Shown here: positions 21,428 to 43,140 of the stretch, piece by piece
Layout of the letters: each line of letters starts with the position of its first letter
Numbering within the stretch: the stretch's first letter is position 1
Assembly (NCBI GenBank): GCA_019915135.1
Contig: JAHLMK010000027.1
Coordinates: forward strand, 186,001 to 250,000
Direction of reading: 5' to 3'
DNA length: 64,000 nucleotides
Source: Strobilurus pachycystidiatus
Lineage: Eukaryota > Basidiomycota > Agaricomycetes > Agaricales > Physalacriaceae
Notes under the pieces: model-generated
Seen by the model: the letters and a program-made list of their open reading frames with translations, nothing else
Databases searched by the model: none
Told to the model about the DNA's origin: nothing
Made by a program: the position numbers and the translations under genes

Positions 21428-21947
21428 GATAGTGTCACTCTAAGTACCCTGTCTCTCGTGAGGGCGTGAAGGGAGAGGTGATGATGGTGGTGGTAAAGTT
21501 TGCAGCTTTGATGTTTGTCAGATTCATCCCATTTCCGTGATTCCGTGAGAGAGTCAAGTCTCTCACTGTGGCGGTGGATTCACAGCTTTAAACGTAGCTA
21601 ATCAATACACGACGGCGCGGACCCAGAGATCGCCGGACGCAGTGCCCCGTGTGTTAGCAGAGTACGTAGCAGCCGCTGCAGATACAGTAGCGGAAGCACG
21701 ATTCAAATGACAATGTGACCACCCCCGCCTCCTGCTGCGTTAACCCCTGCCACTCAAGTGAAGAAGGTCAGATTCGGCTCGAGGAGGTTGATTCGGATGA
21801 TGATGAATGCGTCAGCGTGAGTCAAGGCAATACTATCCGAAACTCTGAGTTTCCTGGATGGCAAAAGTCAGATATGATCATATGACAGAGATACCATTCT
21901 CGTGGAAACCTGTTCGAAATACGTGACGCGGCTACTATTAGCATTGT
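21428..21947. repeat. Upstream block shared by tandem copies
   Basis: The sequence between copy A and the 3' end of the next copy is closely matched by 43141-43625: shared GGTGGTAAAGTT, GATGTTTGTCAGATTCATC, and a long stretch around GAGGTTGATTCGGATGATGATG. The promoter is therefore part of the duplicated unit. A shorter related stretch sits upstream of copy C near 45950-46010. No separate gene is supported. Confidence 0.65.
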
Positions 21948-23607
21948 CTAGACGAAGCACACGTCAAACCTATCCGGTCCGCGCCATTTCTTTTCTTCAA
22001 ACCCGCTCTCGTCATTTTCTTCTTCAGTGCCAACAGTAACCTTGATGGTCCGACCGCCCTTCCACCCAACGATCGATCCTGGTGCAACGGTGAGCGCCCT
22101 ACATCCCTGCTTGAACATATCTCTGATAACGTTGTGCTCGCACGCGAGGCTCGCGACAAACTTTGCCTGCATCTCTGCCGGAGCGGGGTCTGGCTGAAAC
22201 CCTCCCGAGTCGTGTCCCGGCATGGCTGAACTTGGAACAGGCGGTGGCGCATACTCAGCGGGCAGAACATTGAGCATCGAGTCGCAGAATATGGGACAAA
22301 CCGCGCCATTGATGCTGTCCAACAAGCGCCAATGACACGCTGGATCCTTGAAATGTGTCGAATCCTGGACATGCACCCACGGAGTATTGCCATTGCCGAC
22401 CTCAGCAAGCAGCTGTCCCGTCATCTTATTCTTGAACACGAATGCATCTCCTCGAGGGAGAACATGCCACTGATGGTTTGGGTTGCGTGGGTCCCATTTC
22501 GACGCGTTGACATGGCGAGATCCCCACACGTCAAGGGTATACCATTTTGTCGGTGATAAAACGAGGACTAGCAGAAATGCATCGGTTCGGCATTCATCCT
22601 CGGTGTTGTAGACAAACTGCCATTCCCCAGCGGATGCACGGTCTGTTTGAGTGGCGACGTTGGGTCGCTCCGGGTCCTCGTGGTGGAGAGACATGTATCG
22701 CTGTGAATGTACGTTCTGCAGGATGAATTTGCGACGAGATGGAGTGAAGGATTTAGAAGGCCTGCCCTGTGGTGATACAGACACAGGAAAGCGAGCCAGG
22801 TGCCAGAGCTGACTTCGTTGTGCTGTGTTGGACTGGAGGTGGGTGCAATGCAAGCTGTCGCAAATGGACCTCGCCGGACATTTCGCGTCGAACACAGATT
22901 TCGGGGATGAGCCGGCGTTCCGTATCACACAATAGGTCTCTCTAAAGTCACCAGTTTAACATTAAGAAAGCCATATTAGTCTTGATGATCTGTACGTACC
23001 CGTCTACATGCGCAGCATGAAAGGTCCAGGTTCGGTTCGGAGTAGCCCATTCAGATCCAGCTCGAGGTAACACTTGGGTTCCTTCCGTCGCCCTCCCATT
23101 CCACAGATCTAACAGCATTCCAGTGGCCATGTTCCGAATCCCATAATGTATATTCGATTCCCCGTGGATTCGGTAAATCAAGAAGAGTTGTGTATGTGCA
23201 GGCCCCGAACGCCGCGATGAGAGAAATGTGTGTCCATCTGGAGCATCCTTCTCTACCTCGATAATTCGCATGTCATGGACGCTTTGGATAGTGTAGATGC
23301 CCGTCGGGATCTCGAGTATGTGAGTTGATACCGGGAATGCGGTTGGAAGTTCAGGAGTCTGACCAAAGTCAACGACAACTTCCCAAGGAGCAAGTGATTG
23401 CGGTACGTACAGAGGGAGTCGATGTCGTTGGCGAAAGTGTATTTGTGCGTGAAAGGATTTCGTCAATCCCAACGCGTACGGTAGACATAGATTTGAGCTA
23501 CAGTCGAGGTTGTTTTGAGCTCAATGACCTTTATCAATGGGCAATGAATGCTGACATGAAAGATGTTGAAGGCGTGTTCAAGTCGGCGCTCTAGGACAGT
23601 GACAGAA
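21948..23607 (-). pseudogene. 3' half of the interrupted middle paralogue (copy B)
   Basis: Covers the last part of the helical domain and all trefoil units, collinear with copies A and C, ending at the same tail and a TAG at 21948-21950. The match to copies A and C stops abruptly after TGACAGAA (23600-23607), where the 18.9-kb transposon begins. The missing 5' half is at 42509-43140. The remaining frames are open and have not accumulated stops, which suggests a recent break. On its own this half has no start exon or promoter. As annotated it is a split gene, not a working copy. Confidence 0.85.
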
Positions 23608-23664
23608 CAAAAAGATGACACTCTAGTCTTAAGTTACTCTGGTGATCACCGGGGTGAGCATGAG
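23608..23664. repeat. Left terminal inverted repeat
   Basis: Begins CAAAAAGATGACACTC and pairs with the reverse complement of 42453-42508. Shared blocks are TCTTAAG, GGTGATCACC (itself a palindrome) and GTGAGCATGAG, with several mismatches and one length difference near the tip. Confidence 0.8.
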
Positions 23665-23767
23665 CCATGGCTAATCTTATGTTTTAATCTTGAGCTGGAA
23701 ATTCTGGTATATTGCATGGTATGCCATTCATTGGTACACTAATACACACAATGTATGATACTTACAC

Positions 23768-24075
23768 TAAGCTTGAGCCAAACTCAAGCCGAGTGACTCT
23801 AGTTGGCGACACTGACTTGAGTGGCGACACCCGAGTCGAGCGACGAGTCGGACGATACAATAAACTTGAGCCAAACTCAAGCCGAGTGACTCAAGTTGGC
23901 GACACTGACTTGAGTGGCGACACCCGAGTCGAGTGACCACCGACTCGTCGCGAAAGTTGAGTCGGAAACTTGAGCTGAAACTCGAGTTAACGGTACTCAA
24001 CTTGAGTGTACAGCTTGAGCTGAACTCGAGTTCGGCCTTGGGCTCAACTCGCGCCACTGAATCGTCCAAACGGGG
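23768..24075. repeat. Left subterminal repeats
   Basis: Two tandem copies of a 93-bp unit (starting 23768 and 23861, the second shorter), each containing CTTGAGCCAAACTCAAG and GACTTGAGTGGCGACACC. They are followed to about 24075 by further ACTTGAG/CTCGAGTT motifs in both orientations. Related ACTCAAGTTGTGACTTGAGT motifs occur at the right end. Clustered short subterminal motifs are usual transposase-binding sites in DNA transposons; that role here is inferred. Confidence 0.75.
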
Positions 24076-24932
24076 AATTTCGGGATGGACGAAGCCGGAC
24101 CAGGTAAGTAGTCGGGATTGAGATGGATTGTGAGAGGGCACCAAAATACCCAATTAGCCGCGTCGAGACTGGTAGTACGATGGAGAGGGAGAGAGAAATG
24201 TTAGCACGGAAACGATACAGAGAGAAAAGAATCCGACGCACCTAACCAAAATCCTCGCCGACGTCACGTCAGCCGTCCTTCGTCGTGTCCGCAACACACT
24301 AATCCTCCATCCCAAAATTTACTTGCGACGCGGGACCGGCGAGAGTACAATTGAGAGCGTCGTCGCTGCCGCATTGTAAGCCTGTGGTCGTGGGGGGCGT
24401 CGTCGGGGTGGTCGTCGTCCCCATGGTGGTGGTCGTCGTCGTCCTGGTGGATTCGTCACGCCATGTCAACGAGAGAGCAGCGAGAACGTTGTCGCTGGGG
24501 TCGTCGCCACTGGATAGTGGCCCGTCGTCGTATGAGGCGTCGTCGGGGGATCGTCGTCGCCGTCGTGGTGGTGGTTGATGGAAAAGAGCAAATGATTAGT
24601 CAGCTGTCAGACACGGCAACGTGTCCAGGCCGTATTGATGTCCAAAGTGCATAGGCACCAGGACAGGCACCGGCGTCACCGCCACAGATAGATGAGATTA
24701 TGGATGGAGATATCGCGATGACAAGTCCGTAAGTACTTCGTATCAGGTAGTCGTCGATGCAGGGGAATAGGATATGGTACGGAAGGATAGCACGAAAGAT
24801 ACAATACAACTAAATGACGACAACATATGCAAGGGGAAATACAACAAGAATAGACAAGAAAACACGCCAGACAAGAAAACACGCCAGACAAGAAACTGCG
24901 CCACACTCCGCGCCACACCATTACGATCACAG
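24076..24932. repeat. Non-coding left end of element with GTC-rich tract
   Basis: No gene is supported. 24375-24575 is a degenerate GTC/GTCGTC microsatellite-like tract with GGTGGTGGTCGTCGTC and similar runs. It gives artificial valine-rich reading frames, which I do not annotate. A direct repeat of about 17 bp (ACACGCCAGACAAGAAA) occurs at 24866-24895. Confidence 0.5.
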
Positions 24933-24979
24933 ATTCATCTGGGGTAAGATAAGCAGCGGAAACCCTTCAAGAAAGAATG

Positions 24980-26733
24980 TTACATTACCCTAGTATGTCC
25001 TTCCAGCCGGAAGAACCATTCCCTCGGACGCCGCTCCTCCGGCTCAATCCCAAATTGCCTCTTCGCCTCGTCGAGCCTCGATCCCTCCGTCCTGTCGTAG
25101 ACGAAACACTTCGATGATTGGCGTCCCTTTCCCGCCCACTCCACCGTCCCCAAGCTCCAATTGTCCTGCCCGTATACCCGGATGGTAAGATGCGGCTTCT
25201 GCAAGCTTTCTGTGTTCGCGGGAGGCGACAGATGGAAGCCGGAGGGCCTGGATATACGCTCAGACGATTGCAACAGCCGCAAAATGGAAGAAAAAACGCA
25301 CATAAGTACGAAATGCGCCGCATCGTCGCCAAACTCGGAGGCAAATTTCTCGACCGCGTCCCAAAGCGCCATTTCGGCGTTGCTGTATTGGGTGCGCGCG
25401 TAGGGTCGCAGTAGCTCCGCCGGCGTCGGCTGGCCTTGCAGCAGATATTGGGACATAAGGGCGGCCATGACGGATTTGGTCGACGTGAAGAGAGGCGGCG
25501 TTTGTGAGGCGGGAACTTCCTACTTGGGTAATCTCCATCTTGATCTCTGGTTCCTTGTCCGCTCACCATCACCACACTGGCGTCCTCCCTCCTTCTCAAT
25601 CGACCACCCAGTGGATCACCCGCATGATAACGGCGACCGAATTGACAACACTGACGGAATGAAACCGCCGGCAGACACAAGACGCGTGTCAGACTCCAGG
25701 ACGACGGCGCCAGCGGAATGCCGCACATGGAACCGACTGGGACGCGGACAGAGCCGCGCAGTAGGCGGCTAGAGGACTGGCAAAACGCGAGAAAGTGCGA
25801 GGCGTGGGCCCAGAGAATCGCGAGCAGCGCTGTGGAGAGTGTATGTCCGTCAAAGGACGCTGTACCCCCATCCCCGAGAAAGAAGCTGGGAGGATGGAGC
25901 AAGGAGGAGGCTGACAGAGCGCAGAGATGAACTGCTGTGCGGTGCGTCTTCTGCCTTTCCCGTAATGCTTCACATCCCCCATCCCTCTATGTGTGTATCA
26001 CCTAAGCCATGATTGCTCTCTTGTCTCTCGTGGCCCCTCCCCTCGATTTCCCCATCCTCCCTTCACGCCCCTCCTTCGTCGCTGAGCACAGATCCCCCGC
26101 ATAGCGTGAGACGGCTTCCAGGTGCAGCAACCGCCCGCCTATCTACAACAGCAATAACGAGGAGCCCCCTTCTTCCCCCTCCTTCGTTGCCGAGTACCCG
26201 GGAGGGAGGGGGGAGGGGGCGAGGGGGCGAGGGGGGGAGGGGGGGGGGGGGGGAGGGGAAGGGGATGTAGAATAGGAGCTCTTTCCCTGTCCGATTCTGC
26301 GCGCAGGAGAAGTGGATGTCCCGGTGGGTACGATCGTGCGGGATGCGAGAAGAGTACCGTATGGTTGGTGAAGGTGTTGGAGGATGATGTATTGGTTGTA
26401 AAAGAGTCGGGGGGAGGAGGGGGGCTGAAATGATGATTGAGGGTGCGATTGAGCCGGCGCGCGAGCTCTGGTTTCGTAGAGGGTTGTAGACCTTGAAGTG
26501 GGTCAGTTCTGGAAGGAAGGAGGGAGGATAGGACGCACCTTCTGGCGAGGCGCGGACTCGAGGTGGTGGTGCTCGTTGCCTGTAGATTTACGTTCGCCTT
26601 TGACACGGTTTTGAACGCTGTACAAATATGATACCCTCCGCATCTGTGTAGAGACATTATCAATATCACACGGCTCCCCTTTTCTGCTGATTCGAGAAGG
26701 ACTCACCAGGACGGCTATGCTCAACTCAAACAT
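24980..26733 (-). CDS. Hypothetical cargo protein of the element
   Basis: The best-supported exon runs from about 25468 to 24980 (MAALMSQYLLQGQPTPAELL through WFFRLEGHTR) and looks coding: even composition, no low complexity, acidic/aromatic mix. A plausible start exon is MFELSIAVL at 26733, joined by a clean GT-AG intron to MRRVSYLYSVQNRVKGE. The stretch between is C/G-rich low complexity and probably intronic or a second gene. The stop may instead be reached after one more small exon near 24935. I recognise no domain. It lies next to the transposase on the same strand. Confidence 0.4.
26199..26266 (+). repeat. G-rich run
   Basis: A nearly uninterrupted purine tract with many runs of 4-15 G, able to form G-quadruplexes. 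It reads as poly-Pro on the minus strand and lies in probable intronic or untranslated sequence of the leftmost cargo gene. Confidence 0.9.
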
Positions 26734-26867
26734 TTGACGCGCTGCTTGGTCGCCCGAAGGCTAAGCCCAGAACCCACGACAAGGGGGCGCGCGGATACTC
26801 GTCGTATGAGTAACCGATTCTGGGAATGGGTACAGTATACTTCCGATTCGATGGTATATAATACATT

Positions 26868-29800
26868 TATACACCGTCTTCTGCATCCTCATGCGCCATC
26901 TGGGGATCATCCAAGTCGAATCTGTGAAAATGAATACAGCTCTGACCAAGTAAAGGATAGGCACTTACACGAACTCTCCGTCGTCCGACTGATACATGGG
27001 TGCTTCCCCCGCGCGGACGCGTTCGCAATGCTTGTAAAACAACTCGTCCTTTGGTAGTTCCAATATATGACCATAACCACAGGCCTGTACTCGTAGGCGA
27101 GCACGTTCAACCATGCGATTGAACATCACTGCATGCTCACGCGCATATGCAGCGTAACCCACTCTCGACGGTTTGGCATTTGCACAGGCATCCGCACATT
27201 TTGACCAAGTGTCTCTCTCCCTTTCGAACATCCGAATGGCATTCAAGAACTCTGCTTGCATGCGTTCGTGCTGCTCCCTCCACCTTCGCATTTCGGCTTC
27301 TGTTCGAAAGTATCGTACACGCTCGCCTGCCAGCAGACTTTATTAGAGGCAGCTACGTTGTGGCAAGATCACGTACCATCCGTTTCCCATGCATCGACAT
27401 CCACATCGTTCAATGAACCACGTTCCATCAGCTTGTATGGCCAGCCGTCGCCTCTCGCAGGCTTCTTCTCTTGGAAAACCATTAGTGCCAATCGTGGAGA
27501 GTACACATATTGCGAACTCACTCTGTGGATTTGTGGCGCTACCTTTTGCTCTTTTGACGGGCTGAGAAGGACCTGCTCGCTCGGTTATGATCAGTATCAC
27601 ACTAGATACATGCACGCAAGGCTGACCAGGAGCTTGCTCTTCAAGTGTTCGTTTGTTTGCCCGCTCCGCAAAGCCCGCGCCCATCATCGCTGTTTGGTGC
27701 TGGTGAAGAAACAGATGAGCCTGGCCATCTTGTCGACTAGAGTCCAAAGGCTGGCGCAAGCCATCCATCGACTTGGCAACGTAGGTATCCTGTATCGTCA
27801 TCTCCTTCGCCACACCGTCCAACTGCGAACCCTCTACCCCGCGGAGATTCCGCAATGCGACAAAATGATCATTGAAGGTCACGATAGCTTCGTCCCGTCG
27901 AAACTTTGCACGAGAGATTCGCGCCCGGCTTTTAGTAATGGTACCTTGATACTTCAACTGGCGTTTGTCGTATCCCAAAGCCAGTAGCTCACGCGCTATG
28001 AGAATGACCAGCCGTATAGCTTGGAAAGCCAGTGCGATGCGCATGACCTTCTCCTGATCCGTCGCTGCTTGTAGAGATTCCTGCATCGCGGGCGCCAACT
28101 GCGAGGGTAAACATAGTGTCCACTCCTCCACATTGCCTGTCTTCTGGTACCGTCGCTCCTGGTTCATGGGGATGCGCATGCTCCGCTGCTCGTACGGCTC
28201 CAGCTCTCCGAGAAACTTCTTTCGTAAGGCCAGCCAAGGCTCAAGCTCATCACGAAGGGTTGCTCGGTCACGCTTGATTCGCTCACTGTCTATGCCGGAC
28301 TCGTACTTGGTGAGGCGAAGACAGAGAGCCCGAACATGGCGTCTACATCCACCAAGTCAATGAGTGCTCCACAAAATCACTAACTTCGCTTACTGTCTTG
28401 CTTCAATGGTGAGCCCATCGTGCATCCATTTGGCCAGGACATCAGAAGTGACGTTGCCGATACAAGTTAGGCTGTGTGGATTCTCAAGCAGAGTCTCAAG
28501 GACCGAATCCATGCACGGAACTGTAAGCGCAGATAAGCATTCCCGAGACTTCCAGAATGGAGAGCAAGAGGTACCTTTCATCTCGCGTTCCTTGTACGGG
28601 CTCAGGATTACCCTGTCCTTGCCATGACCTGAGACATGGTAGTGCTGGCCAGGTTTGTGTCGATCGGGATAACTGCGATCCCAGTCGGAAATCCATTCCA
28701 TGTTCTGAAGCGCGACTAGGGCGAATTCGTATTTGTAGCGGAGATACATCTGTCGTGCGTAGATCGTGTTCTTAAACACCTCGTTCACTGGTGAGTATCC
28801 CTGAGTTAGCGTAGTCGGCAGTCCAGGCGATTATGCACTGACCAGCGTTCATCGTCTTCTTCCAGTTCCAATCCATGGCCACTCCGAAATAAGTTTCGTG
28901 TCCATAATGCCGATTCATGTGGAAGATCATCGGCGCGTAGGCGTTGGACTTGGGCCAGAAGTGCTCGCAAGTCTCGCCATGGAAGTGGCATTGGCACTCG
29001 ACGTAGAAGGAACCGAACATGTATATACAACCGTTGGCGTGTGTGTATACATGGGCGGCATTGATGAGTCGCGTGGCGTTCTCTATGTGAGGGGCCATAG
29101 CTTTCAGATAGTCGTGGCCAAAGCGATGCAGGATATGTACGCCGTATTGACAGTTTGAGTCATAGCAGAGCGAGCTGGGCTGCTTTGGGTCGCTTGCACT
29201 GGGATTCTCCGGGAAGCCGGAACGCGCATAGAGGAGCTTCGTGACCAGGTCCATGGTGATTTGGCTATGTCAAACTCGTCAGCTCTCAGCCGCGGGGGTG
29301 GTAGAGCTTCGACGTACTCTTCTCCCTTCGGGAAATCAGCCGTGGATTTGACAAAGACATGAGAGCATTGTCCCTGTCCGATCCCGTTGTAGATACAATC
29401 CGCGTTACGGACGTGCTGCTGGGTTGACTTGAGGTTATTGCAAGGAATTTTCTAGATTAGAGCTCAGTTGGTGGCGCATATGTCAGCCTACGAAGGTGAA
29501 GCTTACCTCACGTCGAGGTGTTCGGGATGGAATGGCCGTCTTTCGGTACTTCTCGAATTCCTCAAGGAGCGGCTGAAGTCCACGACCCCGTAAAAGGTCG
29601 ATATCTTTGAGCTTCCAGTTCATACTTCCCTGACAGATCTTGAAGTTGCCGTCGAGCGTACCAAAGTGTGCGATGAGATGACTGAACAATCGATAGTTCA
29701 GTGAGGGTATAACCACCACTGAACAAACTCACGAAAATTCCTCCGGTGTCAACGACCATTCCCTCTCCATGTTGGCGCCGCTCTCCGGACACAAAGGACA

Positions 29801-30931
29801 GTATACAAGAAGCGAATCCGACTGGCGATTGGGGAAGCCAACCGCATGCTTGTTGAAAATAGAACCGCTCCGACGTTCGGCGAGAAGGAGTTTCCAAATA
29901 CGTAGAACCCTCCGAAGCTGCTTGCTGAGTTGCTAGTGGTGACATGAACAGCTGAAACCACGGCTGAAAGCAATGTGAACTTACAGCAACGGACCAAGGG
30001 TATTTGTTGTCCGTGAGTCTCTGCAGGTAGGCGGTGAGGTCGTAGATGTTCGCCGTACACTCGAGATGTAGGAGTTCAAGCCGCCGAAGAAGACGAAAAC
30101 TGAACACGACTTCAGGACGAGCAACCGTGGCCGGGAACATCCGCGCACGCATGAGCTGAGCGACTCGGTCGATGCTGCCAGGTTGACATCCACAGAAACG
30201 TAGCTTCGTGTCGTGTATGCCGTTTTCGTCTACCACGATGAAATGGACCGGTGGATGCGCGTTGGGACAGTCTTGGCCGACGTGACCAAGCTGAGGGAAG
30301 TAACCCAGTACACTGATATCGCGGGGAGTGAAGTAATCCTCTTTCTGCCAAACCTCCGCCCAATGTGTCCACATGTTGCGATGCTTCTCGACGAAGCAAT
30401 CAGAACACCACACGCCATACTCTACGCAGTCTCCACACCGTACAGTGCGACGGTTATTCCTTCCGCAGGGGCAGAGACCAGCGGTATTCGCCTCCACTTC
30501 TGTCTCCATCATTAGGTCGTGCAATTGAGGTTTGATATCCACGAAAGCTTGCAGTGTTTTGCGCGTCTGTCGAAGAAGTATCAGCAGGCGTCCTTCCAAG
30601 AAAGCATTACACGCACCTGTGTCTTCCCCTGCGTCTCAACCTCTTCTTCTTCGTCATCCTCCTCATCGGGATCGACCTCTTGTGGCGGAGCTTCACCGAA
30701 AGCTTTGGCCGGACGGCGAGGAAGGAAGGCTGGTATTGCTTGCGGTTGAACGACGTGCTCCTCGATGGAGGAGATGCCGTGGGCGTTGATGCGCCGAAAT
30801 AGATTGATAACGGGCTGTGGCTGAACGGACTGGAGTGTTCGAATGGTCCCCGAATTTTTGAGACGAGTGAGCTCGGCCTCTTCGTCGTCTTGCTTTTGCT
30901 GCCGATTTCGAGTGTCAACTTTGGTTGGCAT
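26868..30931 (-). CDS. KDZ-type transposase with CxC2-like cysteine cluster
   Basis: Starts MPTKVDTRNRQQK with an acidic/basic N-terminus, then a cysteine cluster (CPCGRNN, VRCGDC, WCSDCF, with PRDISVLGYFPQLGHVGQDCP) that matches the CxC2-like domain known to accompany KDZ transposases. The catalytic region contains YDSNCQY, HVYTHANGC, a second Cys pair in VECQCHFHGE and GETCEHFWPKSN, the usual spacing of KDZ core motifs. Many short introns. The last intron restores frame into FDLDDPQM and an acidic C-terminus, with stop at 26868-26870. The enzyme should cut and rejoin the element ends. I see no frameshift, so it may be active; transcript evidence would be needed for the exact exons. Confidence 0.82.
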
Positions 30932-31106
30932 GACGGAGAAGGAAACGGCGACTCACCCTCGTTATCCTGGTACTTAATACCCGACTACAAAGCAAGGCCA
31001 TTTTCCTTACGGGGCACTCGGGCCTAGGGCACAAACACTTGATTACTCACAGTATAGTATGGGGACACAGTGGAGCGATTCTACTTTAGCTACATATTCA
31101 TACTGT

Positions 31107-31408
31107 TTACAAAGGTAATCTAAGTTTATTCGAGTAGCAAACAACGTTCTTGTGAACAGCAACACCTGATTCTACGTCCGTGCGAGCTTCGGGGTCGTCC
31201 TCGACAGTTAAGACGATGTTTGTTAGTGCCTCATGTTTCTCCATCTATCCATGGCGCGATTAGCTGCAATGGTCCAGATACGAAATGACAGCCATACCTT
31301 AGGTCTCTCTGGCCAGAACCTCTCGACAAATTCCCCGTTGAGATGGGTTGGATCGTTCTCCTCGATATGTCGGAAGCAACATGTCTTTCGGTGGCCGTGG
31401 GCGTTCAT
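31107..31408 (-). CDS. Small gene or fragment resembling a KDZ core motif
   Basis: Two exons: MNAHGHRKTCCFRHIEEN to FWPERPK, then a 53-nt intron ending GGATAG, then MEKHEALTNIVLTVEDDP through KLRLPL and stop. The segment NAHGH-x3-CC followed by LNGEFVERFWPE is similar to the HG-x-C ... GE-x2-E-x-FWP signature of the neighbouring transposase. It may be a remnant of a second transposase or a small derived protein. An AG just before the first ATG means more 5' exons are possible. Confidence 0.4.
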
Positions 31409-31659
31409 GATCTAGCCCAGATCAACACTGCGAGGTTTGGTTAGCGGGATGACAGACAGTGAGATGAACAGTACTGACACGTAGTTAATAGGGAGGGAAA
31501 AGACGAACGCACCCAGACGAAACAGGCGGCCCTTTTAGCCCTGTTCGTCACAAAGCAAGGCGCTTTCCCGACTTGGCAAATGCGCCTACAATGAAACACA
31601 TGATACTACGGAACAAGTATAAGGCGACATCTGTAGATATACGGAGGTACAGGCGCTCT

Positions 31660-32478
31660 CTAAGCCCGAAAAAGATAGATCCGGTCAACGTGCTCATCCC
31701 AGCCTTTCATCCGATCCACCCCAACAGCCTTGAGAGCCAAAATGCCGCCTGGATTGACGATGACAGCCGTATCTTTCCATGGCGGAAGCCACGTAGCCCT
31801 ACGCCGGTCAAAGTAACGGAGTGCTTCCCCCGTGAACCCAACCTGCCGGAGCAGAGCGAGATTGGATGGCGAAGATAGTTTGACCTCTGTTTCGTTTGAA
31901 ATGTTCAACGAAAAAGACACTGGAAGTCCATTATCCTTCCAGCAAATGTGAGAAGATAGTACACTTTCCGTGCGAAAGACCTACTTTCAACCAGAGGAGC
32001 ACATCGATTGTCGCGTCAGACGATGATTCCCGCTTGAGAAGATGGCCGGATTTGAGTCTGTCTTCCTTGGCGCAGTCCCTGGCCTGCTTGCGAAGTCGCA
32101 GACCGTCCATGAGGAGGTTCGAGTTGCGCAACCTCTCGAAGGAGAGACGTGGCGTAAGCCATTGGTGCTGCTCGTGACGAAGACACTGTAGACAGTATTA
32201 GCATGTGTGGAGAGACTAAAGATTATGACGCCTACATCCTGATAGAACCGACCTATGTCTGCAGCGCCTGAATCATCCACACTCATCGGCGCGTGTTCTC
32301 CCCTGACACCGAAGCATACTTTCACTCCGACACCTGCGCAGGGCTTGACCTTTCCGCTACAAGGCTGAGGCTCAGGTTTGGGTCCAGCGAGGGCAGTGGC
32401 TCCAGCACGAACGAGAAGTTCGATATCTTCCTCGGACTCAGTGAGGTCCCCGGGGAGGGCAGAATTGGATGTAGACAT
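31660..32478 (-). CDS. Hypothetical cargo protein, paralogue of the 33015-34087 gene
   Basis: Starts MSTSNSALPGDLTESEEDIELL. After two introns it contains ATIDVLLWLK, then a C-terminal module with RQVGFTGEALRYFDRRRATWLPPWKD, VIVNPGGILALKAVG and WDEHVDRI. The same order and spacing (VEVLLWL, GEVGYDGGMLSRF, WEPTRFDAPFVVNP, LGLKLDRI, KEHIRDL) occurs in the next gene, so the two are paralogues within the element. I do not recognise the family. Confidence 0.55.
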
Positions 32479-33014
32479 GGTAGAATATGGGATGCAAGAG
32501 GCCCGTTTTATATCGATGAGTAAACCTAGTCATCAAGTCGTTAACGTCCCTAAGCACCGAAAGACAGAAGAAATCACACACAATAATTGTTTGTTTCTTG
32601 AGGGCGGCCCTGTCAATGCGACCGAAAGGTGGCTGACCAAAGGCTTTGCAGGAAAGCGTACCGCCTGATAACTCGCCGAGAATCATTTCCGCAGGATTAT
32701 AGTTACAGTTTACGGAGCAGAACGGAAGTAGAGTATGTGCATGAAGTGAACAGGTAGATAATATGTAGGAAATCAAAGTTCAGGCAAGAACGTAGGAATG
32801 TTATATCTAATGTAGCGCAAAAAAGATGTTAAGTAGAGGTTGGACATTTCGTGTATAAGAGAAATTACAGGGTAAGGTAACGATAACAAAAAGCTAGACG
32901 ATTCGAGGTAACAGTAACGATAACAAACGATAACAAAAAGGTAAACGATTCGAGGTAACGGTAACGATAACAAACTTTCAAACGATTCGAGACTGGGAGG
33001 GACAGTTGACGCCT
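32479..33014. repeat. AT-rich spacer with minisatellite
   Basis: Spacer between the two paralogous cargo genes. From 32873 to 32991 there are tandem imperfect copies of a unit containing ACGATTCGAGGTAAC, GTAACGATAACAA and AACGATAACAAAAAG, about 50 bp per unit with internal shorter repeats. No coding signal elsewhere in the spacer. Confidence 0.75.
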
Positions 33015-34087
33015 CTAGATGTGCTCATCGCAGAGATCGCGTATGTGCTCCTTGATGCCAGTCAACCGTCGGATTCTGTCCAACTTGAGACCAAGGGTGA
33101 CTTTGGGATTAACGACGAATGGCGCGTCGAATCTCGTCGGCTCCCATAACATGCCCTCTGGGTTGAAGCGGGACAACATGCCACCGTCGTAGCCAACCTC
33201 GCCGAGGAGGATGCGGTTGTGTTGGAGGATGAGCTCATTGCGAGCGTTGATGTCGAAAACCAATAAGGCAGGCTCCCTCGAGGACTGGAAGATGTGTACT
33301 CAGCAATGACATCCAATTGGAGAAGAGCTGGGAGCACGTACGTCTAACCACAAGAGAACTTCCACGGACTTGAAGTCGTCGTTGTGCAACTTCCGCCTGA
33401 GGTTGGGCGGCTCAACGGATGGCCCGGCCGGCGTCGGTGATGAAGGAGGAAGTGAATCCTTTTGGCGGTTCGATTGGGACTTGGGGGTTGGAGTTGGTGG
33501 CGTTTTTGTCCGGCGACGCGCTGAGGCGCGTAGAGAGTCGTGCCCCTCGAGACCTTCCATAAGTGTTTTGTTTCCTCGGATGGCCGCGAAGGTGCGCTCC
33601 TCTGTATAGAAGCAATGCCAGTTGTGTGCGGTGCACTGCGAAAAGCGTGAGCAGGGCGCGAAACAACAGGTTAAATGTGACTTGCATGAGCCTGATGTCG
33701 CCCAATGTCGGTGACCCGTTCGCCGTGGTTGTTAAAGGTGACGTCGTCCAGGTACTTCTTTCCAGCACCGATGTATACGCCAGTTGTGAGGTAGCACTTG
33801 AAGCCGTATGGGCATTTGGGCCTTCTCGGGCTCTTGTCGGCGATCTCGTGGGCGCCTCGAGATACCAGGGCTTTGTATTCGGCTTTCAGGACTTCGCGGG
33901 TTTTCTTGGGGGTGGTAGGCGCTTTGGGGGGGCGCACCTTCCTGGGCGTGGACGGAGGTGAGGGGGAGGATGATCCCTGACGGGATAAGGCGAGCTTGCG
34001 CGTTTGGTAGCGGGAGTAGTATCTCATGGAAGGAATGGATGTAGAAAGATTCGACAGATTAGTGCTTTTTAAGTCGACGGGGGCCAT
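33015..34087 (-). CDS. Hypothetical cargo protein, paralogue of the 31660-32478 gene
   Basis: ATG at 34087 opens MAPVDLKSTNLSNLS, followed by a basic, Pro/Ser-rich region (TPRKVRPPKAPTTPKKTRE) and CPYGFKCYLTTGVYIG. A spliced middle part is rich in Lys/Pro/Thr. The C-terminal module has KSVEVLLWLD and GEVGYDGGMLSRFNPEGMLW. It matches the adjacent 31660-32478 gene over the last 110 residues or so. The basic tract suggests nucleic-acid binding or nuclear targeting (inference). The frame ends in CDEHI and a TAG. Confidence 0.55.
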
Positions 34088-34095
34088 TGTTCGAC

Positions 34096-34640
34096 CGATG
34101 CGGTATGCCTAGTCGCCATGGCCGCTCGCGACGAGGGAAGGAACACTACCAATAGCCCATAATCAGTTAAAATAATGCGAATATTTACAAAAGGGGGAAC
34201 ATACAGCGATGTAAATTTTGCGCCCATTGTCCTATCGGGCAGTTCCAGGCCATCGGGAGGCGCTGCAGGGTAGACATGCATCGTGGACGCGGAAAGCTCC
34301 GTTTTAAGGGGAGGACTGCACGAGAGTGGCGGCAGGATCAAATTAGGAGATCCTTGATCGCGAAGGATCGGTAGACGGGCTGAGAGCGTGATAGATAGAA
34401 ACAATCTAGAACTGTAGTAAGTCAGATGAAACACCGCAAGACAAAGCAAAGATTTGGAGCGTACCTGGTATGCGCCACAGCAACGGGCGACACGCGCCCT
34501 CGGATCCTTGGCCAGATTCAAGGGCTGTGATGTAAAATCTTAGGAGCTTTGTTGAAAATTGCGTTGAAGACCCACCAAACCCGCTACCCGTGTATTTCGA
34601 CTATAATTTATGGTCCCGACATGGACTCTCCCTGCAGATT
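34096..34640 (-). CDS. Hypothetical spliced coding block
   Basis: At least three segments read as protein on the minus strand: RVHVGTINYSRNTRVAGL, spliced to PLNLAKDPRARVARCCGAYQ, and further down TMHVYPAAPPDGLELPDRTM. The junction between the second and third segments is unresolved because one acceptor leads to an early stop, and I found no start codon. It may be a small gene, the 5' end of the following minus-strand gene, or a decayed copy. Confidence 0.3.
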
Positions 34641-34826
34641 TGATATTAGTGACGGCGATGCAATAGTGTCAGTCTGAATCTTACGGGAGTTCACTTTATT
34701 TGAAACTATCATTATTGAGCCCGCCCCCGTGCGCACGAGTACCGCACTGCGCCGCCCCCAGCCATAATGGCGCCAGCGCCTACATTGTGGTGCGCTGGCA
34801 AGATGGAAAAGCTTACATAATCGGAA

Positions 34827-34935
34827 AGCTCGGCAGGATACAGGCCGCTGATTGTCGTCCAAAGTGCATCGGGCCTTTCCTGACCGGCACTCATGCACTT
34901 TGGACGACAATCAGCGGCCTGTATCCTGCCGAGCT
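34827..34935. repeat. Perfect 43-bp inverted repeat (hairpin)
   Basis: The left arm 34827-34869 and right arm 34893-34935 are exact reverse complements, separated by 23 nt. An imperfect extension on both sides (AAGCTTACAT-type blocks near 34810 and 34947) roughly doubles the arm length. It lies in the only divergent intergenic gap of the element, between leftward and rightward genes. The sequence between 34641 and 35152 has no convincing gene. Confidence 0.92.
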
Positions 34936-35152
34936 CTGTGATCATGTAAGCTTTCCCCACTTGCTTTTGGCCATCAAGGAGGTCCCGGCGCAGGCGCTGC
35001 TGGCTCCCGCCCTTCACATGTAAGTGCAATAGAATACAACCTAGAATACCGTATAATACGAGAAGAATCGGCTCGTCAGGGCCAAAAAAATTCTTTTAAG
35101 TTATCAGGAATCACGACACGACGCGCTAATTAGTAAATCAGTAGGACCAGTC

Positions 35153-38100
35153 ATGCCCGAAGGGCCGTCGGTGGAGAAGTTTCTGTCCTTAGAGGCCCAG
35201 GACGCGGAGGACGACGAGATTATAGACGACGAAGAGGAAGATCCGACGCTCGAAGGTACGTAGCAATGCCCAGCTCACCTGCCCCAAGAGCTGACCTTAC
35301 TTTGCCGCCCAGACCATGATATCGCCCAAGACTCTCCCAGCCATCACAGGTTGTCTCAGCAAGAAATCGCCGCCTACGCAAGGACTTCAGAAAAGCATTT
35401 CTATGCCTGGCTGCACTCTCTTGTCCCGGATGCTAACAAACGCGACGACGAGGATGGACATAACGATTCTGCACGCTTAATCGCAGACCATGGGCATGAT
35501 GATGATGAGGAAGTCGACGACGACGGCGCTTTACCTTCGCATGTGTACAATGCAGCCGATGAGGATATAACCATCTGGCGGATCAAATGTCGCGTATGTT
35601 GCATCGACTTGATTCACAGAACAACACACTGACTATATGGACAGTATCGAACCTCCGTCGAGGTGTCTAAATTAATCAAAGACAACCTGGAATTCCAACG
35701 ACATCCCCCACCTTCCAGACGACGCGACAGCGATTGGCAGCATGCCGCTCGTTTGGCCTACGAAGACGAAGAAGCTCATTCCGGACCAACAGAGGACTCT
35801 CCAGACAGACGGGAGCAATGGAACGAGCTCTCTCAGACCATCGCCCATCGCCTCCATCACGACGCTCAGCCAAAAGACGGCGTAATTGATGTATGGCCCA
35901 GTCCAAAAACCCCTTCCCAGCCATGCGTCTACATCGCCACCAGGGGGACTTTCAACTCGTTAATGGAACTCCTTGTCGACGATCTTGGCCATGCGAAATA
36001 CGGTCTATCCCTCAGAACCATGCAACCACTTCAATCTCCCACTGAGCGCCTACGCGCATGGCGCAGTAGTCGAGGTGTACGCGAGACATTCACCAAATGT
36101 TGGGTTACCATTCGAGGGGGGAAATACGACGGTGATATTGGTTGGGTTGAGAAGGACTACAAGAGTACCTGGTGTACGGTTAAAGTCGTACCGCGGATCT
36201 CTTTCAGATGGCAGCGAACGTTTGTGGGCGAGGGCGATCCTACAGAGGAAGAAGAGCGTGACGCTCAGTCTGGCAAACGCCCTACCGACCGAAATTGGAC
36301 ATCTTTTCCTCGCCGTATTCCACCTGCACCTGGCACTCGACATCCCCCCTGCCTTCTCGCTAAAGAAATCCGCTCCAAGCTCTCAGTCAGCGAAGACAAG
36401 CATCCCATAGTTCGTTACGAGGAGACGGGCAGTACTGCTTTCGTGGCCGATTTCGCCCTGATCCAGGTCCGCCGTTCGCATATCTCCATCGCCATATCCA
36501 CACCTCCCTACATCCACAATCAACTCATGCACTGCGAAGATCCCGAAGCGAGGTCAGCTCTTTCCTTATTACCTCCAGCGGAAAGTGGGATCTTTGAGAC
36601 TGGCGAGATAGTGGAGGATGCTCGAAACGGACTCAAAGGAGAGGTCCTGTCATCTCAGGATGCGTTGCACGAAGCGGGTGGGCGCACCATCTTATCCCAA
36701 TCCGTAACTGTGCAGCCGCTTGAGGATGGATTGAAGGCCGTGGAGATCGAGAGGAGGCATATAGTTCGCGTGTTTGAGGTGGGACAGGAGGTGGGTATAT
36801 GGAACGGCGGTACGAAGATGTCTCATGGATGGGTAATAGCGACGAGTTCTGCGGGGAGAGAGCCCTCTCAAGGAGAACATCATATCAGGCGGCGTCGGCA
36901 AGACCGACATATCACGGTCCTTATCTACTGGACCGGCGAAGATTCCAAGGAGATTTCACCCCAGGTATGTATCTATGCTCGTCGATTATCAGAGACGAAT
37001 TCATTTGACGATAGGTCGTGAGAGTTCACAAGAACAACTGTGTTCACATCACAAGCAACACGCAACCGCCAGAGCGCCTCACTGGGCGGCCATTGTACAC
37101 ACTCGCACCACCGCCGCCTTCTAGCGCAGAGCCGCGCCGTCCCGTTAACCCTCTCCACGACAACCTCGAATACGATCCAGTCAAGGGCATGTTTACCAAT
37201 CAGGTCACCTTTCGTCCAGAGATGATGTACAGTGGAAACGTTCCTTGGTTTCGCCGCCCAGTGGTTGTCCTCAACGGCGAATACAAAGGACGCACAGGGA
37301 CAGTTGAGGATGTCATCAAAGACGAAAAGACCATCAGCGGCCTTAAGATTCTCGTTCGCTTCGATATGCTGCGAGCTATGGAAGGACTCCTGGAGAAGTG
37401 GTACGGCTACGGGCAAGTCGTAGATCCCGAGTGAGCAGTTCTTCTTCTTTAGCCAGAACGACGTGAATTGACACTCACATAGAACACATTGGCCTCTTCG
37501 GATCGTTGCTCCTCTCAGTCCGCTTCACCACAAAAGTGGGTTCCGCGGCAACCAGGCTTTCTACGAGGAGGAGCTGTCCCAGAATCATCCCGTGTTCCGT
37601 GGAGCTCGCGGCCAGCCAAAGGAATCGGACTTTGACAGGTCGTTTCAGGCCTATGTCCCGCCCGGGGAAGGACCTTGGAGTATCACTGAACAAGATCGCA
37701 CAGAACATGGCATCACGCACTCCCATTTCACCAAGACCATGACCTACAACGACAAGGTCGCCTGGTGCCTGCAGCCCCACCTCGAGAACTTGAAGATTGT
37801 CGTACCCACCACCGGAATCGAAGTTAGAAAGAGTAATGGCTCTTCAGGGAAGGGGGAGAGGTTGAAGGAACATTTCGCGACGGTTCAGCAAGTACGCCTC
37901 GACAACAAAGTTGGCGTATATCGAATATTGAAGGGCAAGCGATTACCTCAGGCACTCGTTCCCAGTCAAATACAGCTGAGGCATCCCGGAGCAAAGCCCG
38001 CTGACGGTCACTGTTGGTTCGTCTTCCGAGGTGATCATATTGGGAGATATGTTCGACCCATTCGCTGGGTTGACATGAAGATGTTGTCTGGGGAGAAGAA

Positions 38101-38302
38101 GCCGGCTTGGACAGTCGTCGTTGTTGAGCGTCAAGGACCCGGAAAGCCCGACAAGATTACTGATGACCACATTACCGTTCTCAACGAGGATCTCATCATC
38201 TTGGAGCGCGCTTCGAATTGGAAGGAGACTGACAAGGAAGTTTTGGCGCTACGGGAAAAGAGTCGAAATGGTAGTGCCAAGATGGTGATAGAGGCTATAT
38301 GA
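35153..38302 (+). CDS. Spt5-like multi-KOW protein
   Basis: Five exons (35153-35255, 35313-35593, 35645-36964, 37015-37430, 37483-38302) join in phase to about 979 residues. The N-terminus is acidic (EDDEIIDDEEEDPTLE). Repeated KOW-like strands follow: IRGGKYDGDIGWVEKDY, FETGEIVEDARNGLKGEVLS, VVLNGEYKGRTGTVEDV, and a C-terminal CWFVFRGDHIGRYVRPI segment. An acidic N-terminus and several KOW motifs resemble the elongation factor Spt5, which rides with RNA polymerase II. This copy is inside a transposon and is too divergent to be the housekeeping gene. A role in transcribing or regulating the element is inferred. The frame is fully open. Confidence 0.7.
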
Positions 38303-38415
38303 TCATGAACCATACTGTACTAATAGTTCCTATCTCATCTGTACTACCTACCTACCATCTTGTAATTACACCGCTTTCCACCATTCGCCCCACTTGTGTG
38401 CCGGCAACTCGACAG

Positions 38416-39241
38416 ATGGAGCATCGGAAGCTTGCGAGGTGAGTTCGCCGTCCTGCGGCTTATCAGTTTCGGTCTACTCATCCAGGGATCTTAGGACGAT
38501 GGTGCGAGCCGTATGCTCGCAGTCCTACCCGCGTAAGGAGAACAATGGGAAAACAAAGCAAGTAGGTTTCCCTTGTTTTGGCTACTGGTGCCTAGAGACG
38601 GGGAGTTCTGACGACTGGTTTCGTGTAGGTTGACCGTCTCCTTCCCTTCTTCGTTCACGATGATTTGGGTGAGTGTGCCACTCGAGACATTCACACACTT
38701 TGACTTGTCATAGACGGAACGTTGCCAGACGAAGATCCCTCAGCACTTTCACCTCCATCGCAAACGTAGGATCAAGCGCCCGAAGAGGGGACCGCGCCAG
38801 GCTATCTTCATTTTCTATCGTTCTGTATGTCAGCAACGCATCCATTCATCGCGTTGTGTTCATCATGTCCTTAGGGAGGCCGAAAAGTAGGAACTATCGT
38901 CCAGCTTGATAGCACTCGCACTCGACTTGCAGACCACGCATTTGAGTTGGCCGCGATAGGAATCACCGAACAGCCATATTTCAAGCGCCTGGCCGTGGAT
39001 GGCAGCTCCTGCGAATGGGTCACAATTGGGTGGAGGACTTTCTTTGACATCGCCAACCCAGTCAAGCCAATGTTCTTCAAAGCAACAGAGGAACCGCTTC
39101 CTGCTGACTGGGCACTCGACGTGGGTAGATTCTTGCCCGCCCTGTGATTGTTAGTCGATCTCGTGGCGCATGCACTCTTCGTCACTGACGTTCTAGGACA
39201 GGGGAGGCGTGATATTGCTCTGGGCGGCAGTGGGACCTTAA
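38416..39241 (+). CDS. Hypothetical cargo protein
   Basis: A series of short exons with good GT-AG boundaries. A basic stretch (HRKRRIKRPKRGPRQAIFIF) is spliced to GGRKVGTIVQLDSTRTRLAD and on through EWVTIGWRTFFDIANPVKP and ADWALD, ending DRGGVILLWAAVGP and TAA. Exon phases 5' of 38714 cannot be fixed by eye: one choice runs into a stop at 38767. The start (ATG 38416) is therefore tentative. No recognised family. Confidence 0.4.
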
Positions 39242-39549
39242 TTTGATATGCATATATTGAACCTGAACTTGGTGTGATTAGCACAAGTATGGAAGCGGAA
39301 AAGATCGTGGCGTCAGGATCGACGTGCTTCGTGGCACGGATGCAGGATCGATGTGCATCGTGGCTCTTGCGAGGCGTCAGGATCGACCTGCTCAAAGGTA
39401 TGTTTGGCAGACAATGGTAACCAGCATAATGTTGACACGAACAATAGATTCCCGAGCACAATGGAACTTCAAGGACGGCGGGTATTCGGCCGATATCAGC
39501 AAAATTTTCGTCAGGTATGCTGTCTCGCTGACTCTTGTTCCTCACCACC

Positions 39550-42229
39550 ATGAAGCCTTACGATCTGAAGGCAGAAGATCCATGGCTTGCGAGCAAATAC
39601 GATCCGAATACCCTTCCCGCAGACCAGCTCAGGCAACCCTACCGACGAAGCACGGGGGAAAACCAGCTGACGGCCGAGCAACTCACCCTTTTGTGGACGT
39701 TTGCGCCGGAATGGGAGTCTTTGTGCAAGAGCGTCAAGGGCAGTACCGAGCAGAAACGAGCCTTATGGGTGAAGAAGGCGACGGACGCGGCGTTTAAGCA
39801 TCGCGTATTTCTGACCGATAATGCCCCACTGTTGAAGGTGGTGAGTTGACTGGCGCGAGGTCGTTTTGTCCTGGTAGCGTCTAACGTGCTTGTAGAAGGT
39901 CGCGAAGTGGTTTGCAAACAAAAAGACCCACTACATCGACAAGGGGAAGAGCTTTAAGAAGGCACCTGATTTCGGGCACGACGATGAGGGCGACGACGAA
40001 GAGGGCGACGACGACGACGACGACAATGGGGAGGAGGAGAGTTCTTCTGGACCTGCTGTGAATAGGCGGGGCCTCCTTCGTTTCTCTAACGTTCTACGCG
40101 GGCAGCAGCTGTTCCAAGAAGAACAGCGCGAGGACGTTCGGGAGCGCGCTCAAGAGCTCAAGAGCCAAGTCAAGGACGGCAATAATGGCGCTGCTTTTAG
40201 CAAGGCCGCATCCGAACTCTGGCAGGCGCTCACGGAAGAAGAGCGAGTGGAATGGGAAGCCAAGGCGAAGAAATTGGGCTCTCACGAGAGGTAGGTTCTC
40301 ACCTCGAGGGTGACCTGGATTCCTTGTTGCTGATTTGTGTCCCTAAGTACGCTCTTGCGATTGCCTCTAGCCGTCCGGCAGGTATCGGATAAGCTGGCCA
40401 AGGAAATCGAGACTATCGGTGGGCCCGTCGCAGTTACGGTCATGTATATCTTTCGCGATCGAGTGAATGGATCTTTGGATGGATCTGTGTACGTCGAGGA
40501 CTTCACACCATCATCTCTGCATACTGATATACCTACAGCATCGATTCATCTGCTTGCGGGAAAGAGGCATGCATGATGTCCGAGGTGCTGGGGTCCAACG
40601 TTCTAACAAACTTATCTGCATGGTTCAATAACAAGTGTCCCTGTGAGTGTCGACTTGATTCTTAAGTTCCGCGACTGCCTCCCTAATCTGAGGTTCTAGT
40701 GCCAGTGAAACGGTCTCTAACCTTCCCAACGGACGACGAGAACTTGCCCCGCTTCCCGGTCATAGACCTGGATGCTCAAACGGGAGCGGAACATAACGTT
40801 GTGATTGAAGAGTATATCGCTGCCATGTGGTGTACGTTGAAACGCTTCGTGTCTTGTTTGTGATAGATTCTGACAATTTTGAAGCTTCAATCTACGGCAC
40901 TACGACTCTCAATCGCATCGGACTTGGGGCTAAGCCAAGTGACTTCTTCGACACATCGGCGTGGCCCGAAGTCGAGGCATATCTGACCTCTACCAAAGGA
41001 GCCGCGATACACGCTCAATTACGCCTCTCAGCGATAACTGCGCTAATGACCCGCTCGAACGAGGATTCATCGAATCCCTTCCGTTTTCTGTCGTCACCTC
41101 AAGACTATCCACGTAGCAAGTCGGCCACACCACCACCCACGCCGCCGCCGAAGGATCAGGACAGACCGGCGCCGCGAAGTCCCTCGTTGCCTTATCCAGG
41201 GGATGTGGTCGATACAATGCCAGTCGCGGACACAGACGTCCAAGCAAAGCCGGCATCACCAAAGGTCGGACCGAATTCGCCAGCCAAGAGATCGGAGCGT
41301 GGGGGCAGGGGTGGTCGAAACACCGTTGTAGACGAGGATACGATAATGACGGACTATCCGTGAGTGAATTTCGAGTATATCTGCTGCACTTTTCTGACGC
41401 TTATAGCAGCGTCTCGACGGAAGCAGCGCCAGAGTTAGGAGCCTTACCGAACGTCGACTCAGATGATATTATAAGGGACTCAGTAGCAGTCGAAGAAGGG
41501 TGAGTGTCTCGAGAACTTGGCGGAAGCTTGCTGACATTGTACAGTGATGACCATCTGACACCGCTGAAGTGGAAAAGAAAGTGAATTCACGCTCCTGTGT
41601 GCTATTGAATCGTCCAACTGATTGCTTCCCTAGACAACAGGCCATCAACGTTACCGAGGCGCCTAAGAAGGCTAGAAAGGCACCCGCGAAGTGAGCATCC
41701 GCCCCACCACTACCGTCATCGACTCAACCGTAACAGAAAGGTAAGAAACGATGACGACTCGGAGGCGCCTAAGAAGGCTAGAAAGGCACCCGCGAAGTGA
41801 GTATCCGCCCCACCACTACCGTCATCGACTAAACCATCACCCAACAGAAAGGTAAGAAACGATGGCGACTCGGAGGCGCCTAAGAAGTCGAACAAGTCAG
41901 TAGGGAAGTGAGTTTGTTTACTCCGATTCATGTTATTTGTATACTTAAAGTCCACGAGGAGAACGCGGACGGGCAAGGAAAAGGCACCAGAGTCTTCATC
42001 GCAGGACGGCGCTGTGGCTGCCGAAGGCTCTAACGCGGCCTCTGGTATTTCGGAGGAGCCCCAACCCAAAAGGTGTGAATGGTTTAAGCTTGTTGTTGCC
42101 CCATGCCGATCTCCGTTGGTCTACAGACCTAGGTATGCGTATGTGCATCCGTCAGAGCTGCCCGTACCCTTGTTTGACGCTAAGATTGATACTTCTCTCA
42201 CGCGTGCCTCGCGCCGCGCGCCGAAGTGA
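39550..42229 (+). CDS. Hypothetical cargo protein with HMG-like segment and Lys-rich repeated exons
   Basis: ATG 39550 sits in the good context CACCATGA; open sequence further upstream (from 39289) may be another exon. Parts in order: a conserved N-terminal block (TAEQLTLLWTFAPEWESL through KKVAKWFANKKTHYIDKGKSFKK), a very acidic stretch, then FSKAASELWQALTEEERVEW, which resembles the second half of an HMG box. Next come a conserved middle region (VAVTVMYIFRDRVNGSLDGS), a Pro-rich linker, and a basic tail with tandemly repeated exons. All introns near the 3' end are phase 2. Stop at 42227-42229. DNA binding is inferred from the HMG-like segment and basic tail; the family is otherwise unknown to me. 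Confidence 0.5.
41656..41885 (+). repeat. Tandemly duplicated exon-intron unit
   Basis: Units begin at 41656, 41762 and 41872 (periods 106 and 110 bp). Each holds an exon encoding EAPKKARKAPAK-like residues plus its following intron, including the conserved intron stretch CCACCACTACCGTCATCGAC. Because flanking introns are phase 2, each copy adds the peptide KKVRNDD-x-SEAPKK in frame. Confidence 0.9.
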
Positions 42230-42508
42230 TTACTTGCCGGGTTGGCATCGGCACATGTAGCCAGGTAGTACGCAAGCTTGTAATTTCTCAACTCAAGCAT
42301 ACACACGATTTTGAGTCCAACCATCAGCAATTACTCAAGTTGTGATTTAAGTTTACTACTCAAGTTGTGACTTGAGTTACGACTCAAGTTCTGGCAGCTT
42401 GATTGATAGATGCATACATGTTTCGGGTACCAAATAATGAGATGAGCGATATCTCATGCTCACCCTGGTGATCACCGAAGCAGCTTAAGATAAGTCGGTC
42501 ACCTTTCA
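42230..42508. repeat. Right subterminal repeats and right terminal inverted repeat
   Basis: 42336-42405 contains ACTCAAGTTGTGATTTAAGT and ACTCAAGTTGTGACTTGAGT type motifs, matching the left-end motif class. 42453-42508 is the right terminal repeat, reading outward TGAAAGGTGACCGACTT, then TCTTAAG and GGTGATCACC. The element ends at 42508, directly before the TGACAGAA duplication. Confidence 0.8.
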
Positions 42509-43140
42509 TGACAGAAGCAGATATGTCGCTCCTGAAGATTATCTTCTTGACGCCTCTGTGTGCTGCCTGCTTCTGCGCGAATTTGAGGATGTCATCCATG
42601 GTACTAGACGGCCGATTGTCAATTGCAAACGCGTCGAATGGTACTGGCAGACACCTACGTGGATAACTGCGCTAAGTCCTTCTGCAAGCTTTCTACAGAG
42701 CTCGCTTCAACACCTTCACAAGATTGCGCCACCGCGAGTGCAATATCGCCAGCCCTCATTGCAATATGACTGAGAGCATCGTTGTTCGCACGTACTTCCT
42801 ACAATGACACGTCGTCAAGGAAAATCAGAGCAGTTGATCATAAACTCACATCTGCGATCTTCAAGATTGTTATCCCGACGGTCGCGATGTACTTGACACA
42901 AGGAAGTCCTGAAATCGCTTCACAGACGTCCTGAAGACCTCGAAGCGCTGCTAGATCGGGTATGGATGAGGGAATGGTACTAGAGTCGAGATTGGCGGTA
43001 AGACTCGTTCCGTCGTCAAAGATCTGACTTGTTGCGGTGGCTTTGGAACGTCTGGCTCCAGTGTGCACCGCTGCCCTGATAGATGAGTAGCCCAATGTCG
43101 AAGATGGTGACGCAGCAAAGCCATTGGGAGGTAGTGACAT
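42509..43140 (-). pseudogene. 5' half of the interrupted middle paralogue
   Basis: Begins with ATG at 43140 (MSLPPNGFAASPSSTLGYSS) and is collinear with the first exons of copies A and C: the Ser/Thr leader, the GLQDVCEAISGLPCVKYIAT helix, the RANNDAL helix and MDDILKFAQKQAAHRGVKK. Similarity stops inside the exon encoding the last helix, at 42509, where the transposon begins. The complement, with the lectin-like units, is at 21948-23607. Some small differences (for example a lost codon in the second exon region) exist relative to A and C. It keeps a promoter, so a truncated helical-domain protein could still be made and would run into element sequence. Confidence 0.85.

Follow-up and report, generated by a model that had tools for sequence, protein, structure and literature searches.

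KDZ transposons with defined ends have been described in several organisms. Two fungal Kyakuja families, Kyakuja-1_LB and Kyakuja-2_LB, have 7-bp target duplications and a TET/JBP gene; their ends are CA..TG and lack inverted repeats (Kojima 2025, PMC12730594). In the same report Zisupton and one Dileera family have 8-bp duplications, and inverted repeats are given for Zisupton. The elements KDZ1, KDZ2 and KDZ3 of Cryptococcus neoformans are mobile in experiments; they have about 9–11 kb, CxC1 domains, inverted repeats of 139–241 bp and duplications of 8 bp (KDZ1) or 4–8 bp (KDZ2 and KDZ3) (PMC12810828). Giant KDZ elements of up to 30 kb are found in the brown alga Ectocarpus, often with extra genes and nested unrelated transposons (PMC12477816); a 31.7-kb active KDZ element of Chlamydomonas is cited in the same paper. 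The TIR motifs of KDZ or Plavaka elements have been characterised in Marasmius oreades (PMC8290104), and a library of transposable elements includes some of up to about 42 kb (PMC9674265). Giant size, accessory genes and defined ends were therefore already known for KDZ from the published Kyakuja, Cryptococcus, Ectocarpus and Marasmius elements. The original prediction for the locus studied here, according to which the ends of KDZ elements are rarely pinned down, was overstated: ends or target duplications have been published for Kyakuja, Dileera and Zisupton families (PMC12730594) and for Cryptococcus (PMC12810828), as are TIR motifs for Marasmius (PMC8290104).

We have studied a stretch of 64,000 nucleotides of Strobilurus pachycystidiatus, which we will call the window. 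It corresponds to positions 186001–250000 of contig C27, in a genome of 51.8 Mb with 61 contigs. Three genes lie there in tandem, and the central one, gene B, is interrupted by a KDZ transposon which measures 18,902 bp (23608–42509) and has the termini CAAAAAG...CTTTCAT. We consider that a giant CxC2-KDZ transposon of 18.9 kb has inserted close to the 5' end of a tandem gene with a lectin fold, with a probability of about 0.93; its mode of movement and the putative helper roles of its other genes are inferred.

The element resembles Kyakuja-1_LB and Kyakuja-2_LB by its KDZ transposase, its 7-bp duplication, its 5'-CA terminus, its presence in a fungus and the carriage of extra genes. It differs from them in its 3' end (..CAT), its imperfect inverted repeats and its KOW and HMG genes. 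With Zisupton and Dileera it has the KDZ superfamily in common, but the duplication has 8 bp there and 7 bp here; inverted repeats are found both in Zisupton and in the window element. The three Cryptococcus elements are also KDZ transposons with inverted repeats, although they are smaller, have CxC1 instead of CxC2 and duplications of other lengths. The giant elements of Ectocarpus are similar in size and in their extra genes, but their host is a brown alga.

A TET/JBP cargo was searched for with a single model, PF20515 (2OG-FeII_Oxy_6), which we take to cover the fungal TET/JBP proteins. It has no match in the element and three matches elsewhere in the genome. By this model a TET-carrying KDZ element was rejected as a description of the window element.

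The interrupted gene and its paralogues

The three tandem genes A, B and C are on the minus strand, with a mutual identity of 79–88% in the BLAST rows. The only domain recognised in their scanned blocks is RicinB_lectin_2, a lectin fold of the ricin-B type; the Pfam scan found no domain in two 5' blocks of paralogue C. Paralogues A (19152–21540) and C (43647–46006) have the empty site. The downstream (3') part of gene B, at 21970–23607, contains the RicinB_lectin_2 domain and is 88.0% identical to 19153–20796 of paralogue A, while its upstream (5') part is found at 42510–43236; the alignment of 42509–43236 with 45273–46003 of paralogue C has 83.1% identity. The two halves are thus collinear with intact tandem paralogues, as had been predicted. 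The breakpoint falls in an open reading frame close to the 5' end of the gene, as read in A and C. The upstream half of gene B runs on into the element and finds a stop at 42384.

The octamer TGACAGAA is present on both sides of the element in gene B and only once, at the insertion site, in each of paralogues A and C, which confirms their value as an empty-site reference. When the flanks of gene B are joined, they align to A and C without any gap at the site. The target-site duplication itself is GACAGAA, found at 23601–23607 and at 42510–42516 and single in A and C. The sequence supports the insertion of a KDZ transposon into a gene; its ends can be defined, and A and C provide the empty site for comparison. 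The insertion had been considered probably recent because both gene halves remain open. This is weak evidence; a perfect 7-bp duplication and the very small number of differences from a copy in contig C5 (24 mismatches in 8,899 aligned bases) are better arguments.

A duplicated stretch with 70% identity over 488 bp lies outside the element (53728–54213 and 57336–57818). The only tRNA that ARAGORN detects in the window is at 2893–2977, and there are no Rfam matches for structural RNA at the gathering threshold in 20000–46000.

Ends, duplications and copies of the element

A search of the genome with the left 192 bp of the element gave 21 matches, and 6 were obtained with its right 179 bp. Nine copies with two ends could be put in register: the window element, one copy in C5, one in C1 and six others of 1,586–2,548 bp. 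One-ended or degraded matches, for example C9:1483090 (L035), were excluded from the duplication count. The flanking 7-mer is perfect in eight of the nine copies of this family; in C1:270955–272606 (L033) it matches in six of seven positions. Adding a 46-bp relic and the second family discussed below brings the total to 13 two-ended copies, 11 of them with a perfect 7-mer (eight of nine in this family, the relic, and two of three in the second family). As a control we cross-paired the flanks of different copies: none of 156 pairs had the 7-mer in common.

The base which precedes the right 7-mer is a T in all nine copies and forms part of the terminal CTTTCAT. Before the left 7-mer a T is found only in the window and in L033, with other bases in the remaining seven copies. 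The eighth matching base in the window is therefore due to chance, and the register of the nine copies gives a target duplication of 7 bp, the additional T being the last base of the element itself. The original prediction had proposed a duplication of 8 bp, TGACAGAA, which would correspond to the length found in Zisupton and to an element ending in ...CTTTCA. The window on its own does match in eight bases on both sides. Yet the eighth base differs in seven of the eight other copies, and L033, which has the T, has a mismatch inside its 7-mer; furthermore the right-hand T belongs to CTTTCAT everywhere, and the pairing register of the inverted repeats also sets the ends at 23608 and 42509. The other two-ended copies in the genome thus rule out an 8-base duplication, to which we give only a very small probability. 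That exact ends could be defined was correct, and the genome search confirmed that they recur; the last base of the element and the length of the duplication had to be changed. A single insertion is a trap in this respect: the duplication will appear one base too long whenever a flanking base happens to equal the last base of the element.

An even smaller probability corresponds to a separation of the two gene halves by recombination or by an assembly error, without transposition. Tandem genes which are 79–88% alike make an unequal exchange possible, and the locus is known from the assembly sequence alone. Such events are difficult to reconcile with a perfect 7-bp duplication placed precisely at ends which recur at unrelated loci with different duplications, and with a flank join which aligns without gaps to A and C at the site. 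We therefore maintain the insertion of a transposon.

The termini of the element form an imperfect inverted repeat. Counted inward from the fourth base, 57 of 75 positions (76%) are complementary between 23611–23685 and 42432–42506; the left repeat, on the plus strand, occupies 23608–23685 and the right one, on the minus strand, 42432–42509. Imperfect inverted termini had been correctly predicted, but with a length of 57 bp: the repeat is longer and weaker. In the other eight two-ended copies, 57–65 of the 75 positions are equal.

Subterminal repeats are also present, as had been noticed. The 8-mer ACTCAAGT/ACTTGAGT appears 10 times in the window and eight times inside the element, always close to its ends: four times in the first 400 bp and four in the last 180 bp. 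The hexamer CTCAAG/CTTGAG is dense at both ends, with 27 copies per kb over the leftmost 412 bp and 23 over the rightmost 220 bp; its density is 0.8 per kb in the interior of the element and 1.0 per kb outside it. It is repeated 11 times in a left cluster (23689–24019), partly within a 93-bp tandem repeat (23763–23937), and five times in a right cluster (42292–42388). Clusters of this hexamer are found close to both ends in the window copy and in the six short copies, and at the left end of the C1 copy; the last 300 bp of C1 contain only two hits of the motif.

Self-comparison reveals a palindrome at 34798–34964, between two divergent genes, with 72-nt arms which are 90% complementary. The region 24551–24670 has relatives in many places of the genome, which we know by their coordinates (C20, C31, C15, C16, C29, C9, C19, C13 and others). 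Some of them form close inverted pairs, and the region has a 19-nt inverted match in common with the palindrome. It may be a promoter-like module common to several transposon families.

The copy in C5 has 33,222 bp; its site is unrelated, and it is flanked by a 7-bp duplication of its own. Its ends are identical to those of the window element over the 192 bp (left) and 179 bp (right) used in the search. It matches window positions 23607–25707 and 35713–42510 with a divergence of 0.27% and one gap of 17 bases. We considered whether it could be an allele of the window, which is ruled out: its flanks have no match to the window. The middle 10 kb, including the transposase, are swapped for 24.3 kb (C5:2684180–2708487), with a KDZ match at C5:2696283–2696654 and an open frame that we read by eye as Plavaka. 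The right junction of this insert ends in GTGATG, which fits the PlavakaB ends given by Kojima (PMC12730594).

The copy in C1 (6.06 Mb) has 19,939 bp and is a diverged relative, mostly 77–92% identical to the window per 500-bp bin, with 52–79% in the spacer at 31.1–34.6 kb. About 2 kb (window 25108–27107) have an identity of 99.6–100%, which suggests a likely exchange or conversion between copies. Directly upstream of the C1 transposase there is a second CxC2-like stretch (C1:6058352–6058726), with 42% identity to residues 124–248. A relative in C13 also has such a second stretch, and the corresponding region of the window is poorly conserved.

The six short copies retain the ends and some subterminal sequence; they look like derivatives with internal deletions. 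The relic mentioned above, C7:212360–212405 (L036:3361–3406), has 46 bp with a perfect 7-mer: it consists of the leftmost 41 bp of the element and TTCAT, and thus has both outer ends. It is possibly an aborted excision or an extreme internal deletion.

A second family has three copies, in C9, C1 (3.41 Mb) and C7, which are 98–99.9% alike. Its ends read GTGAAGTG...GGGAACAG and show no clear inverted repeat (29–30 of 75 positions). Two copies have a 7-bp duplication and the C9 copy has no matching one. In this family the KOW gene is also in three blocks; a search of the copies for the HMG block gave no match.

Transposase and accessory genes

The transposase gene (27377–30931, minus strand) was modelled by hand with nine exons, and its C-terminal end is uncertain; CxC2 and KDZ were identified in its first 960 residues. 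A Pfam scan of this model gave 93 bits for the cysteine cluster CxC2 (PF18803, cut-off 27) and 73.5 bits for KDZ (PF18758, cut-off 26.6), positions 4–216 of the 217 in the profile. By manual conversion, CxC2 (residues 192–292) is placed at 30006–30308 and KDZ (residues 372–601), which extends across exons, at 28868–29665, both on the minus strand. The KDZ transposase predicted inside the element is thus present: a PF18758 domain of nearly full length, an N-terminal CxC2 and a 7-bp duplication, within the expected length of about 7–8 bp, place the element in the KDZ superfamily. In the whole genome there are at least 174 KDZ-domain match rows, with 150 of 249 candidates scored, against the 3 matches of PF20515.

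A predicted accessory gene with KOW (35633–38299, plus strand) is transcribed divergently from the transposase. It is formed by the open blocks 35633–37018, 37015–37431 and 37472–38299. The second block matches PF00467 with E 1.3e-4 and 22.1 bits, just under the cut-off of 22.3. No Pfam match was found by our scan in the first block, in its relative P0001 or in the L039 block. P0001, the only hit of the first block in a protein database search (76% identical), is listed with a precomputed PF23042. When a profile of the first block was compared with the PDB, three hits had E values of 1 or lower, and the two strongest were Spt5-type chains: "Protein that forms a complex with Spt4p" (E 9e-4), which is presumably Spt5, and "Transcription elongation factor spt5" (E 0.045). 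The structure model of this block has low confidence (mean pLDDT 38.5). The protein may thus be called weakly Spt5-like. A further open block (39896–40291, plus strand) has a weak match to HMG boxes, PF24815 with E 0.0024 and PF09011 with E 0.0025, both below the cut-off.

Compared with a single relative of the same genome, the C1 copy, dN/dS is low: 0.24 for the transposase, 0.25, 0.18 and 0.30 for the three KOW blocks and 0.27 for the HMG block, with gapped codons and stop codons (1–2 in four blocks) skipped. Block 40809–41360 gives 0.41. Block 24983–25519 has only 2 changes, since it lies in or beside the nearly identical stretch.

The KOW gene is found in 15 genomic loci (18 match rows). 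A divergent transposase adjoins it in at least nine of them, and the divergent order is kept in all nine linked loci; 48 of 201 candidates were scored for transposase matches around KOW loci. In the other six loci (C5, C28:74451, C1:4735107, C13:565004, C23:654414 and C20:340353) there is no nearby transposase among the matches listed, some of which may have been missed. A direct search of 20 kb at C13:565, of another 20 kb at C23:654 and of the C5 element found no transposase match. The HMG block has eight genomic matches, seven of them adjoining a KOW gene. HMG and KOW appear together in all six loci with a close relative of the transposase (the window, C1:6.06 Mb, C13, C3, C23 and C1:6.40 Mb). 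The eighth HMG match, C10:1240250, has 34% identity; another transposase match is found some 6.6 kb away.

The KOW and HMG genes could be host genes which hitchhike in the element and do not belong to its machinery. The six loci out of 15 without a nearby transposase among the matches listed would be in agreement with such an origin. Against it stand the divergent order in nine of nine linked loci, conserved across two families with 35% identity between their first KOW blocks, and the low values of dN/dS. We consider hitchhiking rather unlikely. A bolder proposal is that these transposons form a giant CxC2-KDZ clade, with at least two families in this genome, which has its own Spt5-like KOW protein, and in one family also an HMG protein, as a fixed divergent module. 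These proteins would act as elongation or chromatin-opening factors and allow escape from silencing by a route unlike that of TET/JBP. This proposal is speculative, and we consider it unlikely. A pairing of KOW and HMG with KDZ was not found in the literature, as far as our search reached: SPT5, KOW and HMG are absent from PMC12730594, and in PMC12477816 "KOW" and "HMG" occur in the reference list only.

A possible mechanism of movement

The anatomy of the family suggests a cut-and-paste movement. The transposase would bind the subterminal motifs of the ACTCAAGT type and the inverted termini. It would then insert the element into target DNA cleaved with a stagger of seven bases, and filling of the gaps would generate the duplication. 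The short copies with internal deletions could be moved in trans by the same enzyme. The KOW and HMG proteins might assist the transcription of the element or its access to chromatin, which is the least certain step.

The value of this locus is a KDZ element with its ends fixed by many copies and with an empty-site reference. Its accessory genes are a recurring set, which is testable for a role in mobility, and the natural short copies could serve as substrates in transposition assays.
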